DNA of 56,084 nt from NCBI GenBank assembly GCA_945872795.1, contig CAMCAZ010000001.1, positions 1-56,084 on the forward strand, in the 5' to 3' direction. The position numbers and the translations under genes are program-made. Positions 19,389-24,038 of the stretch are shown here, piece after piece (position 1 is the first letter of the stretch; the number at the start of each line of letters is the position of its first letter). This DNA is from Chryseobacterium gleum (lineage in GTDB: Bacteria > Bacteroidota > Bacteroidia > Flavobacteriales_F > PHOS-HE28). The notes under the pieces are model-generated. The model was not told the origin of the DNA, ran no database searches, and was given only the letters and a program-made list of their open reading frames with translations.

Positions 19389-20351
19389 ATGGTGGAACGG
19401 CTCAAGCGGAAGGTGCTCTTTTCGCGGACATTCCGTGCCTTGACCGGGTGGACCCAACGGATCGTTCCACCGGGCTTCGAGGGCTTCAGCCTGTTCCAGA
19501 TCCTGCGCTTCTTCATGTCGGCACTGGCCCAGGGCCGCTTGATCACGCGCGCCTCGGCCATCTCCTTCAAGCTCTTCCTGGCCTTCTTCCCGGCGGTCAT
19601 CGTGCTGCTCACATTGATCCCCTACATCCCCATCCCCGATCTGCAGCACAGGCTTCTGGAGACCTTCCGGGAGATGATGCCCATCGAGGTGTACCGCTTC
19701 ATTGAAAGCACCCTGCATGACCTGCTGTTGAAGAAGCATGGCACCCTGCTGTCCGTGAGCTTCATCTCCGGCCTGTACCTCGCCAGCAACAGCATCGATG
19801 CGATCCTGGAGGGCTTCAGCGGGAGCACCAACCTCACCAAATGGCATAGCGCCCTCAAACAACGCCTGCTCAGTCTGGGTCTCCTCCTTGCGTTGACCAT
19901 CCTGCTGGTGATCGCCATCCCGCTCTTCTCCATCAGTGGCGTACTGCTCGGCAAACTGCTGGACCTTTCCGTGCTCACCACCAGCATCGAGGTCTACCTG
20001 CTCATCGCCCTGAAGTGGGTCCTGTCCATCCTGCTCGTGATGGTCTCGGTCTCGCTGCTCTACATGGCCGGCGATCCCACGGCCAAGCGCTTCCGCACGT
20101 TCACTCCCGGTTCCATCCTGGCCGTTTTCCTCATCCTCTTGGTATCCCAAGCGCTCGCGTACGTGTTCAGCAACATCACCGACTATAATGCGCTATACGG
20201 TTCCATTGGTGCGATCCTGGCCGTCCAGCTTTGGATCTACTTCAACATGATCGCCCTGCTCGTGGGGTATGAACTGAACATCAGCATCACCCGTGCCCGG
20301 GCACACCATAGCGACAAGCTGCTGGCACGGGGCGAACGACGCCGCTCCTGA
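19389..20351 (+). CDS. YihY/BrkB family inner-membrane protein
   Basis: Polytopic membrane protein of 320 aa, once annotated as RNase BN. About six membrane segments are evident, for example ISFKLFLAFFPAVIVLLTLI (about 58) and LSLGLLLALTILLVIAIPLF (about 160). The conserved region LYMAGDPTAKRFRTFTPGSI and IGAILAVQLWIYFNMIALLVG near the end are typical of the family. The cytoplasmic N-terminus is basic. Function is unsettled; transport or envelope roles have been proposed. It lies 5 bp after nadC. Confidence 0.92.
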   Translation: MVERLKRKVLFSRTFRALTGWTQRIVPPGFEGFSLFQILRFFMSALAQGRLITRASAISFKLFLAFFPAVIVLLTLIPYIPIPDLQHRLLETFREMMPIEVYRFIESTLHDLLLKKHGTLLSVSFISGLYLASNSIDAILEGFSGSTNLTKWHSALKQRLLSLGLLLALTILLVIAIPLFSISGVLLGKLLDLSVLTTSIEVYLLIALKWVLSILLVMVSVSLLYMAGDPTAKRFRTFTPGSILAVFLILLVSQALAYVFSNITDYNALYGSIGAILAVQLWIYFNMIALLVGYELNISITRARAHHSDKLLARGERRRS

Positions 20352-20375: not shown

Positions 20376-23300
20376 ATGCGCATCCTTTTCCTGTTCCCGG
20401 TCCTTCTTCTGGCCAGCTTCGTCGCTGCCCAACGCTTTGATGCCGAGCGGCCGCCGAACACGTATCGCAACGCCGACAACCCGCATTACTGGAAGAACCG
20501 GCCACCCCATCCCGGCTACTGGCAGCAGGATGTGCACTATGTGATCAAGGGGCGCTTGGACGATGAACAGGACCTGATCGAGGGTGATCTGACCCTCTAT
20601 TACCACAACAATTCCGGCGACACGCTGCGCCACGTGTTCTTCCACCTCTACCAGGAAGCCTACACGCCAGGATCCTACGCCGACCTGTTGGACAATGACG
20701 GAAGGAACTCACCACCCCGCGAGGATTATACCGGCACCCGGATCACCTCTCTCACGGACGGCGCGAACACCCTGCGTACGGAGCAGGACAACACGGTGCT
20801 GAAAGTGGACTTGGCACAGGCCCTGCCACCGGGTGAACGCGCGGTGTTCCGCATCGGGTTCACCACCCACTGGGCCAAGGACATCCAGCGCCGCATGAAG
20901 CTCTTCAACGCCTGGGGCTACAAACACTATGATGGCGTGCACTGGTATCCCCGGATAGCGGTGTACGACCGGCGGGCCGGATGGGACACCCAGCAGCACC
21001 TGGGCAACGAGTTCTATGGTGACTTCGGCACTTTCGACGTGGACCTCGACCTGCCGCATCACTACATCCTCGACGCCACCGGCCATTTGCAGAACCGCGA
21101 AGAGGTCCTGCCGGCGGAGCTGCGGGCCAGGCTCGACATCGCCAATTTCAAGGACAAACCGTGGAACGAGGCCCCCTCGGAGATCATACCCATCGAACCC
21201 GGCAAACGCAAGGTGTGGCGCTTCCATGCCGAGAACGTGCATGACTTCGCTTTCACCGCGGACCCCACCTACCGCATCGGAGAAGCGGAATGGAACGGCG
21301 TGCGCTGTGTGGCCCTGGCACAGGAACCTCATGCCAGCGGATGGCAGAACGCAGCTTCCTACACCGCGCGCATCATCGAGGTGTTCAGCACCGACTTCGG
21401 CATGTACGCCTACCCCAAGATGATCGTGGCCGATGCCCGCGACGGCATGGAGTATCCCATGCTGACACTTGATGGCGGAAGGGATCCCGACTACCGCGGC
21501 CTGCTGGTCCACGAGGTGGGCCACAACTGGTTCTACGGCATGGTGGGCAACAATGAGACCTACCGCGCCTTTCTCGACGAAGGCTTCACCCAGTTCCTGA
21601 CCAGTTGGGGATTGGAACGCATCGATGGTGACACCCTGGTGAGCGAGGCTCCGGCCACCCGCTACGAGGCCCGGCATCGCCCTCCTGAACTGGTGCGGGA
21701 AAGCGAGGTGTACTACGGCTACCAACGTGATGCGGTGCGTGACCGGCTGCCCGCGATCAACACCCACAGCGACGAGTTCGGGTATGGCGAGGCCCGTGGA
21801 CAGGGCGGATACGGACATGCCTATTTCAAGACCGCCACCATGCTCTACAACCTCCAGTACACCCTGGGCGATGAGCTGTTCCTATCAGCGATGCGTCACT
21901 ATTTCGACCAGTGGCGCATGTGCCATCCCTATCCCGAGGACATGCGGCAGAGCTTCACCGACCACACGAAGCGCGACCTGAACTGGTTCTTCGACCAGTG
22001 GATCGACACGGGCAAGCGGATCGACTATGCTGTGAAAGGTGTGAAACGACGTTTCAAGGAGGATGGCCAGGAGATCACCCTGCGACGGGTGGGTGACCTG
22101 CAGATGCCCATCGACCTGCAGGTCATTGCCCGTAATGGCAGCGTGCACAACCTTCATATCCCCAATATGTGGGATGTGAAGCTGACCACGGACAGCGTGC
22201 TTCCACGGTGGATCGGCTACGACCAACTGCAGCGCGACTATACCGCACGGGTGAACATCCCCTCGGGCATCGACCAAGTGATCATTGACCCGAGCGACCG
22301 GCTTGCGGATGCGAACAAGCTCAACGACCGCTTGACGCCACCTGTGAATGTCACCTTCGACCACCACCTCTGGACACGCCCGGACCGGCGCACCTATGAA
22401 GGTTTCGTGCGCCCCGATCTCTGGTGGAACGGCTACGATGGCGTGAAGGCCGGCGTGCACTTCAACGGCAGCTACATGCGTTACAAGCACAAGCTGCATT
22501 TCAGCGCATGGCTCAACACCGGCATGGGCCAGCACCTCCCTCCGAATAATGCCGCGGTGCAGTTCGACCCCGTGCCGGGCAACACCGATACGGGATATGA
22601 CCCCATCTCCATCAACTTCCGTTACGAGAACGGCACCGAGAAGGTCCTGAAAGGCTCCTCCACGTTCGTCCATGCACGTGTGTTGGACGGTATGCAACGC
22701 TACGGCGGTGGGTTCCAATACACCCTGCCGAACGGGCGCACCGAGGCCCAGGTGGAACTGGTGTACCTGATGCGACGTGACAGCAGTGACCTCACCTACC
22801 TGCTCTATCCCGACCTGTGGAACCTCGACCAGCTGAACGGAACGGTGAACCTTTCGCTGCGGCACCGCTACAACTACGGCCGTGGCACGGGCAACCTGCT
22901 CGCTGAACTCCGCAATTCCACTGTGGGTTCCGATGCCCGTTATGCCCAGCTCCGGCTCAGCGCCATCAACATCAGCGACCTGGGTCCTTTCCAAGTGAGG
23001 ACCCGCGGTTTCGGGCAGTTCGGCACCGGGCACACGCCCATGGAGAGCGGGCTTTACCTCGCCGGGGCATCACCCGAGGAGATGATGGAGAACAAGTACA
23101 CGCGCAGCATCGGCTTCGTGCCCTACGACTGGCTGGGCCTTGGCCCTGCCACGAACCACTTCCACGCCGGTGGTGGGCTGGGGTTGCGCGGATATGCCGG
23201 ATACCTTGCCCCGGAGGAGATCGAAGAGGGACAGGTGATCCAGACCTATGCCGGGAATACCGGCGCGGCCGCCAGTGCCGAACTGGACCTTGATGGCCTC

Positions 23301-23600
23301 GTGAGCTGGAGACCCGGCAAGCTCGCGCGCTACCTCCACCTGGACGTTTACCTCTTCGGCGATGTCGGCGTCATGGGCTACCGCATGGTCGTCAACGATC
23401 GCGAACGCCTCGAACTGGCGGCGCCCCGTGCCGATGCAGGGGCCGGCCTGGCCTTCACCATCAAACGTTTCGGTCCGCTCGTGGACATCAAACCCCTCAC
23501 CATCCGCTTCGACATGCCCCTGTTCCTCTCGGCACTGCCCGCCGGGGAAACGGACCACTTCGCGTTCCGTTACGTGGTGGGCATCGGACGCACATTCTGA
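20376..23600 (+). CDS. M1-family metallopeptidase fused to a probable outer-membrane beta-barrel
   Basis: Large (1074 aa) exported zinc aminopeptidase. A signal peptide (RILFLFPVLLLASFVAA) precedes an M1 N-terminal beta domain. The exopeptidase GAMEN-like site reads DGMEYPML near residue 356. The zinc site is HEVGH at 379-383 with the third ligand E402 in AFLDEGFTQFL. A helical domain follows to about 570. From about 660 to the end the sequence changes to alternating aromatic/polar strands (YEGFVRPDLWWNGYDG, GLGLRGYAGY), and the last residues are FAFRYVVGIGRTF, the terminal-Phe strand expected of outer-membrane barrels. The barrel is inferred by eye. The peptidase would then sit on the outer membrane, on the periplasmic side or the cell surface. 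Confidence 0.85.
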   Translation: MRILFLFPVLLLASFVAAQRFDAERPPNTYRNADNPHYWKNRPPHPGYWQQDVHYVIKGRLDDEQDLIEGDLTLYYHNNSGDTLRHVFFHLYQEAYTPGSYADLLDNDGRNSPPREDYTGTRITSLTDGANTLRTEQDNTVLKVDLAQALPPGERAVFRIGFTTHWAKDIQRRMKLFNAWGYKHYDGVHWYPRIAVYDRRAGWDTQQHLGNEFYGDFGTFDVDLDLPHHYILDATGHLQNREEVLPAELRARLDIANFKDKPWNEAPSEIIPIEPGKRKVWRFHAENVHDFAFTADPTYRIGEAEWNGVRCVALAQEPHASGWQNAASYTARIIEVFSTDFGMYAYPKMIVADARDGMEYPMLTLDGGRDPDYRGLLVHEVGHNWFYGMVGNNETYRAFLDEGFTQFLTSWGLERIDGDTLVSEAPATRYEARHRPPELVRESEVYYGYQRDAVRDRLPAINTHSDEFGYGEARGQGGYGHAYFKTATMLYNLQYTLGDELFLSAMRHYFDQWRMCHPYPEDMRQSFTDHTKRDLNWFFDQWIDTGKRIDYAVKGVKRRFKEDGQEITLRRVGDLQMPIDLQVIARNGSVHNLHIPNMWDVKLTTDSVLPRWIGYDQLQRDYTARVNIPSGIDQVIIDPSDRLADANKLNDRLTPPVNVTFDHHLWTRPDRRTYEGFVRPDLWWNGYDGVKAGVHFNGSYMRYKHKLHFSAWLNTGMGQHLPPNNAAVQFDPVPGNTDTGYDPISINFRYENGTEKVLKGSSTFVHARVLDGMQRYGGGFQYTLPNGRTEAQVELVYLMRRDSSDLTYLLYPDLWNLDQLNGTVNLSLRHRYNYGRGTGNLLAELRNSTVGSDARYAQLRLSAINISDLGPFQVRTRGFGQFGTGHTPMESGLYLAGASPEEMMENKYTRSIGFVPYDWLGLGPATNHFHAGGGLGLRGYAGYLAPEEIEEGQVIQTYAGNTGAAASAELDLDGLVSWRPGKLARYLHLDVYLFGDVGVMGYRMVVNDRERLELAAPRADAGAGLAFTIKRFGPLVDIKPLTIRFDMPLFLSALPAGETDHFAFRYVVGIGRTF

Positions 23601-23606
23601 ACGACC

Positions 23607-24038
23607 ATGCGTACACTTCTGATCCATGCCCTGATCGTCCTGCCCCTGTTCGCCCTGGCCCAACCACCCGCGAATGCCGGAGTGCTGGGGCGATGGACCA
23701 CCATCGACGACAACACCGGAAAGCCACGGAGTGTGGTGGAGATCACGATGAGCAACGGCGTGCTCAGCGGTCGGATCGTCGACCTCCATGATCGCAGTAA
23801 GCTGGACAAGGTCTGCGAGAAGTGCACCGATGACCGGAAGAACAAACGCATCGTGGGGCTCGAGATCATCCGTGGAATGAAGGCCGATGGCGACACGTGG
23901 GAGGATGGCACCATCCTGGACCCCGAGACCGGCAAGGTCTATGACTGCAAGCTTTGGCTGGAGGACGGGAAGCTGCAGGTCCGCGGCTACGTGGCGTTCT
24001 TCTTCCGGACACAGGTGTGGGTGCGGCGCACTCCCTGA
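23607..24038 (+). CDS. DUF2147 family secreted protein
   Basis: Exported protein of 143 aa. The signal peptide MRTLLIHALIVLPLFALA is followed by a compact beta-rich domain with GRWTTIDDNTGKPRSVVEI, LSGRIVDLHD, a CEKC pair (near residue 70), ILDPETGKVYDCKLWLED and GYVAFFFRTQVW, the pattern of DUF2147 (lipocalin-like). Function is unknown. It lies 6 bp after the M1 gene and may be co-transcribed with it. Confidence 0.88.
   Translation: MRTLLIHALIVLPLFALAQPPANAGVLGRWTTIDDNTGKPRSVVEITMSNGVLSGRIVDLHDRSKLDKVCEKCTDDRKNKRIVGLEIIRGMKADGDTWEDGTILDPETGKVYDCKLWLEDGKLQVRGYVAFFFRTQVWVRRTP

Follow-up and report, generated by a model that had tools for sequence, protein, structure and literature searches.

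Gene layout and peptidase domain

In the window, which is the whole 56,084-nucleotide stretch of Chryseobacterium gleum DNA analysed, a single open reading frame runs from the ATG at 20376 to the stop codon at 23598–23600 and encodes 1074 amino acids. The features of the locus are given below; row counts refer to a 56-row alignment, most rows of which had been preselected by an HExxH plus RG pattern.

19389–20351, plus strand: gene for a BrkB/YihY membrane protein, immediately upstream and separated by 24 nt (PF03631, E 5.7e-47)
20376–23600, plus strand: complete gene (1074 aa and stop codon), with likely signal peptide, M1 peptidase and predicted Omp85-type barrel
20376–20429, plus strand: likely Sec signal peptide, residues 1–18 (read from the sequence; helix 2–17 in the model)
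20526–22310, plus strand: M1 peptidase region, approximately residues 51–645 (PF01433 at 376–542; VIA M1 matches)
21444–21458, plus strand: GMEYP, residues 357–361, where M1 enzymes have their exopeptidase loop motif (56/56 rows)
21510–21581, plus strand: zinc site, HEVGH 379–383 to E402, HEXXH-X18-E (56/56 rows)
21822–21824, plus strand: Tyr483, probable catalytic Tyr by analogy with M1 enzymes (56/56 rows)
22026–22295, plus strand: all-beta segment, residues 551–640, at the place of M1 domain III, which we presume it to be (secondary structure of the model; ERAP1 alignment)
22395–23597, plus strand: predicted Omp85-type 16-strand barrel, residues 674–1074 (two models, structure matches, profile comparison)
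23031–23261, plus strand: 77-residue loop joining strands 11 and 12, residues 886–962, with LRGY at 937–940 (model and alignment)
23607–24038, plus strand: DUF2147 gene, immediately downstream and separated by 6 nt (PF09917, E 7.7e-32)

The analysis confirmed an architecture composed of a likely signal peptide, an M1 zinc-peptidase domain and a predicted C-terminal outer-membrane barrel. The protein is probably exported, and its mature N-terminus would be Gln19 according to the Bacteroidetes Q-rule, if the signal peptide is cleaved where we read it. Gln19 is invariant in 29/29 rows of alignment A1, from which L021, a near-copy of L019, was left out. A tally of the Q-rule in the window gave 5 of 16 candidate frames, several of them clearly not signal peptides, and was set aside as too crude.

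The original prediction had placed an M1 peptidase with HEVGH 379–383 and E402 in the first part of the protein, and this was upheld. PF01433 scored 50.7 bits (cut-off 27.7) and was the sole Pfam family found in the whole protein; both Pfam and NCBIfam recognise the M1 half only. The full-length model matched M1 folds with VIA Z-scores of 26.5–29.1 over 382–493 aligned residues in the 50 rows listed, among which the Deinococcus two-domain M1 enzyme aligns over residues 48–643, and residues 59–675 of ERAP1 (6ryf) align to 51–669 of the model. The zinc site is intact, the ligands H379, H383 and E402 being kept together with E380 in all 56 of the largely preselected rows, and of six segments compared for conservation, the catalytic part ranks highest (mean column identity 0.72). 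The domain is probably catalytically active. GxMEN is the exopeptidase motif of the aminopeptidase members of M1 and does not define the family. Here Glu359 is present in 56/56 rows, but the letters are DGMEYP; since D-G-M-E-Y replaces GxMEN, exopeptidase action is not certain.

The C-terminal barrel

The barrel was folded by itself because the M1 domain filled the Foldseek and VIA lists of the full-length model, which contained M1 peptidases only. The barrel-only AlphaFold2 model reached a pLDDT of 91.4 and a pTM of 0.87. In both predicted models the last 400 residues form 16 beta strands, counted by eye with short strands inside loops excluded, and end in Phe1074. The outer-membrane barrel ending in Phe that had been expected at the C-terminus was thus found in the predicted structure, and a soluble fold, which would have spoken against it, did not occur. 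The earlier reading had not recognised the Omp85 type of this barrel.

Foldseek returned 107 rows for the barrel model at E ≤ 0.001, and all 50 listed are BamA/BAM or TamA chains (E 2.8e-9 to 2.0e-7), with loose superpositions (rmsd 7.7–14.8 Å, TMq 0.36–0.49). The 50 VIA rows listed are all BamA/BAM, TamA or SAM (Z 18.0–20.8), 49 of them assigned by title and one, 5ayw, probably belonging to this group by its alignment range. The loop between strands 11 and 12 lies at the L6 position, and its R-G-Y fits the RG[FY] motif of Omp85 barrels. No POTRA domain was seen in the model, in which residues 545–673 consist of strands only, with no helix of at least four residues. The barrel strands were slightly more amphipathic (1.35) than the M1 strands (1.07), a weak separation that was not used as proof.

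When the barrel profile was compared by hhalign with Omp85 proteins of congeners, it scored 44.9 (E 5.8e-5, probability 66%), against 14.2–25.0 for controls and at most 23.8 for 40 column shuffles. Against four small Omp85 profiles, each built from 1 or 3 sequences, the barrels scored at control level (17.4–22.9), which was uninformative; positive controls in which known Omp85 groups were compared through equally small profiles were also weak (21.6–27.3). Pfam matched no family, PF01103 (Omp85) included, in the 21 barrels scanned; NCBIfam gave weak matches to five models among 54 barrels, with the BamA model in 2/54 (best E 0.0017), and a PDB search by hmmsearch using the barrel profile gave a single chance match (E 0.25). 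Taken together, the models and the congener profile allow this predicted membrane barrel to be named Omp85-type (BamA/TamA/Sam50).

Conservation and gene neighbourhood

Fifty-five homologues could be aligned, at 41–74% identity. A close orthologue or fragment occurs in 44/45 genomes of the genus, its own genome counted; the exception, G032 (69% complete), has only a paralogue of 32% identity. The barrel by itself was detected in 41/45 genus genomes (40/44 in a second count), the four misses being G032 and also G009, G037 and G044, in which the match is truncated by the start of a contig. All 56 rows contain R938-G939 and the terminal Phe, to be read with the preselection in mind. Among 40 fetched class loci the pattern failed in three, all of which have the zinc site, with R-A-F, R-A-Y and A-R-G-Y as motifs. 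These three, L120, L128 and L136, are absent from alignment A3 but included in A4; L143–L146 and L148, whose frames are split or incomplete, are in neither. L292, dropped from the tree by the motif filter, proved to be a normal fusion protein carrying R-G-Y.

The fusion is widespread across the class: of the 295 class genomes sampled, 166 have the barrel, and among the 150 places listed, 139 fall within frames 900 aa or longer. A scan of species genomes gave 369 matches, the best 80 of which were all labelled Bacteroidota, and the remaining genome searches were confined to this phylum. That the protein could be an artefact of assembly or annotation is already contradicted by the one-frame fusion in most congeners and in many families, in many cases on long contigs.

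Two genomes of one family, G132 and G164, carry the barrel without the peptidase, directly after BrkB. These forms show that the barrel is able to do without the peptidase, and since they keep the barrel only, they argue that it is more than an anchor.

BrkB was a neighbour by the distance rule in 31/80 named loci (25/36 congener loci and 6/44 others); L178, L182 and L216 fail the rule only since their stop-to-stop frame extends back over BrkB. In class loci it was a neighbour in 19/58, or 16/54 after repeats of one genome were removed. The BrkB profile was made from four neighbour proteins, and PF03631 was found by Pfam in 8/8 of those scanned. The linkage is common but by no means universal, and we read no function into it. 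The DUF2147 similarity cluster is present in 22/80 loci, 18 of which are from congeners.

Discussion

In the model, the seven short turns of the barrel comprise 45 residues and the eight long loops 165, within the strand limits set by us, and the peptidase attaches on the side of the short turns and the C-terminus, opposite the long loops. Because the short turns lie on its side and the long loops opposite, the peptidase most likely faces the periplasm and not the surface. Its proposed position at the surface is accordingly disfavoured, also by PlpD, an enzyme-Omp85 fusion studied by experiment, whose enzyme domain is in the periplasm (PMC11116518).

We favour, with a probability of roughly 0.55, a periplasm-facing M1 zinc exopeptidase that is held at the outer membrane by an Omp85-type barrel and trims N-termini. 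The barrel would occupy the C-terminal place of the classical M1 helical domain IV and hold the peptidase at the outer membrane, on its periplasmic face. The enzyme would remove N-terminal residues from peptides arriving there; alternatively, its substrates may be unfolded or incompletely protected exported proteins that reach this membrane. The barrel may also have an insertion or translocation activity of its own.

A possible, clearly less probable reading is that the protein functions as an Omp85 factor for assembly or translocation. Its M1 domain, at the POTRA place, would receive outer-membrane or surface clients and trim or clear them, and the barrel would insert or translocate them, which would make the protein a fused counterpart of the metalloproteases linked with outer-membrane protein biogenesis in E. 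coli. The Omp85 assignment by profile, Foldseek and VIA, the conserved loop and RG motif and the survival of the barrel after loss of the peptidase are consistent with such a role. However, the model has no POTRA domain, the protein is not known to have a client, and M1 exopeptidases, unlike BepA, are not endoproteases. A link between outer-membrane protein biogenesis and the M48 zinc proteases BepA, YcaL and LoiP (PMC13067283) is in favour of this reading, whereas PlpD shows that an enzyme-Omp85 protein may serve other purposes (PMC11116518).

It was also proposed in the original prediction that the protein serves peptide uptake, the barrel admitting oligopeptides and the peptidase cutting them upon entry. 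A peptidase joined to an outer-membrane barrel, likely on the periplasmic side, would suit such a device, but the barrel is of the Omp85 type. Members of this family insert or translocate proteins and are not known as general pores for nutrients or peptides, and for this reason uptake is not favoured. The broad class-wide conservation looks like housekeeping, and no peptide transporter was recognised among the 22 neighbour clusters listed, annotated in part; uptake thus appears unlikely.

Still harder to credit is a surface enzyme whose barrel translocates the peptidase outside, as once proposed for PlpD. The enzyme is N-terminal to the barrel in both proteins, yet PlpD keeps its enzyme domain periplasmic (PMC11116518), and the passage of an M1 domain of approximately 600 residues through a narrow barrel would be improbable.

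If the protein is a periplasmic exopeptidase on an Omp85 anchor, it may bear on the Q-rule. Under this rule a Gln following the signal peptide is cyclised by glutaminyl cyclase, which is essential in P. gingivalis. The peptidases that trim N-termini in the periplasm are only presumed in the papers on the rule (PMC10653852, PMC5837995), and the fusion is a concrete candidate for this activity. In a highly speculative extension, the protein would be an N-end checkpoint of Bacteroidota, in which the Omp85-anchored exopeptidase, itself Gln-capped, meets exported proteins on their arrival at the outer membrane, trims every N-terminus lacking a pyroglutamate or lipid cap and forms one internal aminopeptidase pressure behind the rule, while the barrel recognises clients like other Omp85 barrels. 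The fusion is likewise a candidate for peptidase-linked outer-membrane quality control in Bacteroidota. Omp85 proteins are core assembly machines of the outer membrane, and fusion to M1 adds an architecture in a major phylum.

Comparison with known systems

Searches of the open-access literature turned up no description of an M1-Omp85 fusion, an architecture that is easily overlooked since Pfam and NCBIfam do not reach beyond its M1 half. PMC4104836 lists few fusions of an enzyme to an Omp85 barrel, namely with patatin and with a PF00149 domain. The PlpD-type patatin-Omp85 proteins (PMC4104836; PMC11116518) likewise carry a soluble enzyme at the N-terminus and a 16-strand Omp85 barrel at the C-terminus of a single chain. 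Their enzyme is a patatin lipase, whereas the present protein has an M1 zinc peptidase, no patatin domain by Pfam and no POTRA domain seen. Its occurrences came from Bacteroidota only, among the 80 best of the 369 matches and in the other searches, which were run within the phylum.

The Omp85/TpsB superfamily is defined by its barrel, POTRA domains being usual, not defining, and absent from some subfamilies (PMC4104836). One of these, the 'Metallo' subfamily of Heinz and Lithgow (2014; PMC4104836), resembles the present protein in having a metal-dependent enzyme domain on an Omp85 barrel and in the absence of POTRA. Its domain is called a metalloprotease in that paper, which yet cites PF00149 (PMC4104836). 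The Pfam name of this entry is Metallophos. We take it to be a phosphoesterase family, whereas the peptidase domain here is PF01433.

BamA and TamA/TamL of Bacteroidota (PMC12611786, PMC12045153) share the barrel fold and motifs; the present protein differs from them in that no POTRA is seen, in a likely Sec-type signal with Gln at +1 in place of a lipobox, and in the peptidase before the barrel.

With the M1 aminopeptidases ERAP1, IRAP, Thermoplasma F3 and the Deinococcus two-domain enzyme, the protein shares HEXXH-X18-E, the probable catalytic Tyr and the fold. Classical M1 enzymes carry the helical domain IV at their C-terminus, whereas this one carries a predicted Omp85 barrel there, with D-G-M-E-Y in place of GxMEN.

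The peptidase and barrel halves

The fused protein is encoded by a single gene that follows a BrkB/YihY gene on the same strand:

20376-23600, + strand, fused gene, 1074 codons plus stop
19389-20351, + strand, BrkB/YihY gene (PF03631, E 5.7e-47), upstream of the fused gene

The N-terminus, ending in ...VAAQ, reads as a signal peptide, and Gln19 is invariant in the genus alignment (29 of 29 rows). Peptidase_M1 (PF01433; residues 376-542, 50.7 bits, cut-off 27.7) is the sole Pfam family found, and NCBIfam gave just two M1-type models, both far under their cut-offs. The zinc site is H379-E380-x-x-H383-X18-E402; H379, E380, H383, E402, E359 and Y483 are present in all 56 aligned Bacteroidia proteins, most of them preselected with HExxH and the RG pattern. 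The full-length AlphaFold2 model built from this alignment has a pLDDT of 87.9 and a pTM of 0.85, and its N-terminal part matches M1 structures with VIA Z-scores of 26.5-29.1.

Models and profiles identify the C-terminal half as a barrel of Omp85 type. Modelled alone (420 residues, 54 rows), it reached a pLDDT of 91.4 and a pTM of 0.87. Both models have 16 strands, short strands inside loops being left out of the count, and in both the longest barrel loop (77 residues, 886-962) joins strands 11 and 12; it carries L-R-G-Y at 937-940. In Omp85 barrels, such a loop is the one called L6, and it bears an RG[FY] motif. Foldseek returned 107 PDB chains at E <= 0.001, the best 50 of which are BamA/BAM or TamA (E 2.8e-9 to 2.0e-7, TMq 0.36-0.49, rmsd 7.7-14.8). 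The 50 matches listed by VIA-align are BamA/BAM, TamA or mitochondrial SAM (Z 18.0-20.8, rmsd 4.0-6.0), 49 of them identified by title and the other, 5ayw ('Structure of a membrane complex'), having the alignment range of the BamA rows; we take it to be BAM. No POTRA domain was seen in the full-length model, where residues 545-673 form strands, with no helix of at least 4 residues, and occupy the place of M1 domain III. The barrel takes the place of domain IV of classical M1 enzymes.

When the profile of 54 barrels was independently compared with that of 26 congener Omp85 proteins found with PF01103, the score was 44.9 (E 5.8e-5, probability 66%, 311 columns), with the RG loop, the F-x-D-x-G strand and the R-x-D strand paired in register. 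Controls with the same profile scored 16.6 (PorP/SprF barrels), 14.2 (FadL-like barrels), 17.7 (M1 domain), 23.1 and 25.0 (reversed profiles) and at most 23.8 (40 column shuffles). No Pfam family matched any of 21 barrels, the NCBIfam BamA model matched 2 of 54 (best E 0.0017), and four small Omp85 profiles scored only 17.4-22.9. Given these poor results against the matches of fold and profile, the relation to Omp85 is distant in sequence but clear in fold.

Distribution and gene neighbourhood

A close orthologue, whole or in part, occurs in 44 of 45 genus genomes, the source genome included; in G032 (69% complete) only a paralogue was found. The barrel alone was detected in 41 of the 45. Across the class it was found, at E <= 1e-5, in 166 of 295 genomes (79 of 155 genera), 11 of the 166 genomes being from the source genus; of the 150 places listed, 139 fall within open frames of 900 aa or more, and the other 11 within shorter frames. 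A species-genome scan gave 369 relatives, the best 80 of which all have Bacteroidota labels. Peptidase and barrel share one frame in 79 of these 80, the exception (L150) starting at a contig end, and each of the 73 frames that reach 1040 aa retains the zinc motif, the RG motif and the terminal Phe, the RG count being biased because a peptide containing LRGY was one of the two scan patterns. Phylum-wide, full-length matches also occur outside the class (e.g. G549, residues 45-1066 in a 1123-aa frame), and many of the matches listed are M1 paralogues (610-660 aa) that lack the Omp85-type barrel.

Upstream of the fused gene, BrkB/YihY adjoins and nadC lies beyond; a DUF2147 gene is downstream. 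BrkB is immediately upstream, by our distance rule, in 31 of 80 named loci (25/36 congener, 6/44 others), at least 900 nt of upstream sequence being available in 69 of the 80; among 54 unique class loci, whose flanks are short, the number is 16. It recurs before both fused and barrel-only genes; the literature matches listed gave no established function for it. Of 44 loci outside the genus, 24 have a TPR-protein gene (~250 aa) a short way downstream, at position +1 in 20 of the 24; Pfam confirmed the TPR assignment for L185 only (L185:7229-7987). We draw no function from either neighbour.

Barrels without the peptidase

In three genomes the barrel occurs in a different setting:

L140:4517-5839 (genome G132) and L141:4372-5694 (G164), free-standing 441-aa barrel with its own signal peptide
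L142:3103-4920 (G048), 606-aa protein, the same barrel preceded by ~200 residues without a Pfam match

In a barrel tree (FastTree, 57 leaves, midpoint root) the G132 and G164 barrels and four fused proteins, all of the same family (f9), make up a single clade (local support 0.999); apart from these two barrels and L142, every leaf is from a fused protein. The start codon of both free barrel genes overlaps the end of a BrkB gene. The other M1 genes of these genomes have frame lengths resembling paralogues also present in a fused relative (G052), so no moved peptidase half is seen. The simplest reading is that the peptidase was lost and the barrel kept; the barrel would therefore have work of its own.

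Stand-alone short copies of the last 32-36 barrel residues (G034:C1:1568484-1568591, G017:C41:11205-11300) sit ~0.4 kb and 3.3 kb past the end of the gene and look like duplicates of the C-terminal strand. There is also a second M1 protein of ~1000-1100 aa, encoded on the same contig outside the window (G000:C1:88743-92057 = L004:1201-4515) and at L304-L306 and L316-L335. Its C-terminal 440 residues (24 loci) match the barrel profile colinearly and weakly (score 31.5, E 0.004, probability 8%), and Omp85, PorP, FadL and M1 profiles at 13.5-21.5. By sequence it is possibly another M1-barrel fusion, one that lacks the RG motif of the loop.

Discussion

With our strand limits, eight far-side loops total 165 residues against 45 for seven peptidase-side turns. 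The C-terminus of Omp85 barrels lies on the same side as here, that of the peptidase. Since the long loops are opposite and the C-terminus is on the peptidase side, we place the M1 domain, from the model and by analogy, in the periplasm. The protein would likely be an exopeptidase held at the outer membrane and facing the periplasm, where it would trim the N-termini of peptides or exported proteins. The barrel might also handle clients, as a working Omp85 assembly or translocation factor with the M1 domain in the POTRA place. In the passages available from work on the Q-rule, exported P. gingivalis proteins with the Gln mutated to Asn had lower abundance, one having an N-terminus 13 residues shorter; aminopeptidases were presumed responsible, and the enzymes named are dipeptidyl-peptidases, with no M1 enzyme among them (PMC10653852, PMC5837995). 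To link such trimming with the M1-Omp85 protein is speculation.

The fusion is provisionally undescribed. The literature matches listed, as titles and abstract starts (subscription papers and preprints being outside the search), hold no description of an M1-Omp85 or M1-barrel fusion, and the parts available of the Bacteroidota BAM paper (PMC12611786, with no word starting 'peptidase'), the TamL paper (PMC12045153) and a 2026 BAM review (PMC13067283) do not mention it. Heinz and Lithgow recognised ten Omp85/TpsB subfamilies (PMC4104836); an M1 fusion is absent from their subfamily section (section 10), and no word in the paper starts with 'peptidase'. The family that defines the 'Omp85-metalloprotease' subfamily of that section is PF00149, Metallophos in Pfam, so the label, repeated in a passage of PMC11116518, looks like a misnomer. 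The known patatin-Omp85 protein PlpD has its enzyme domain in the periplasm, as established by experiment according to the part of PMC11116518 available; the M1 domain of the fused protein would, by inference, lie there likewise.
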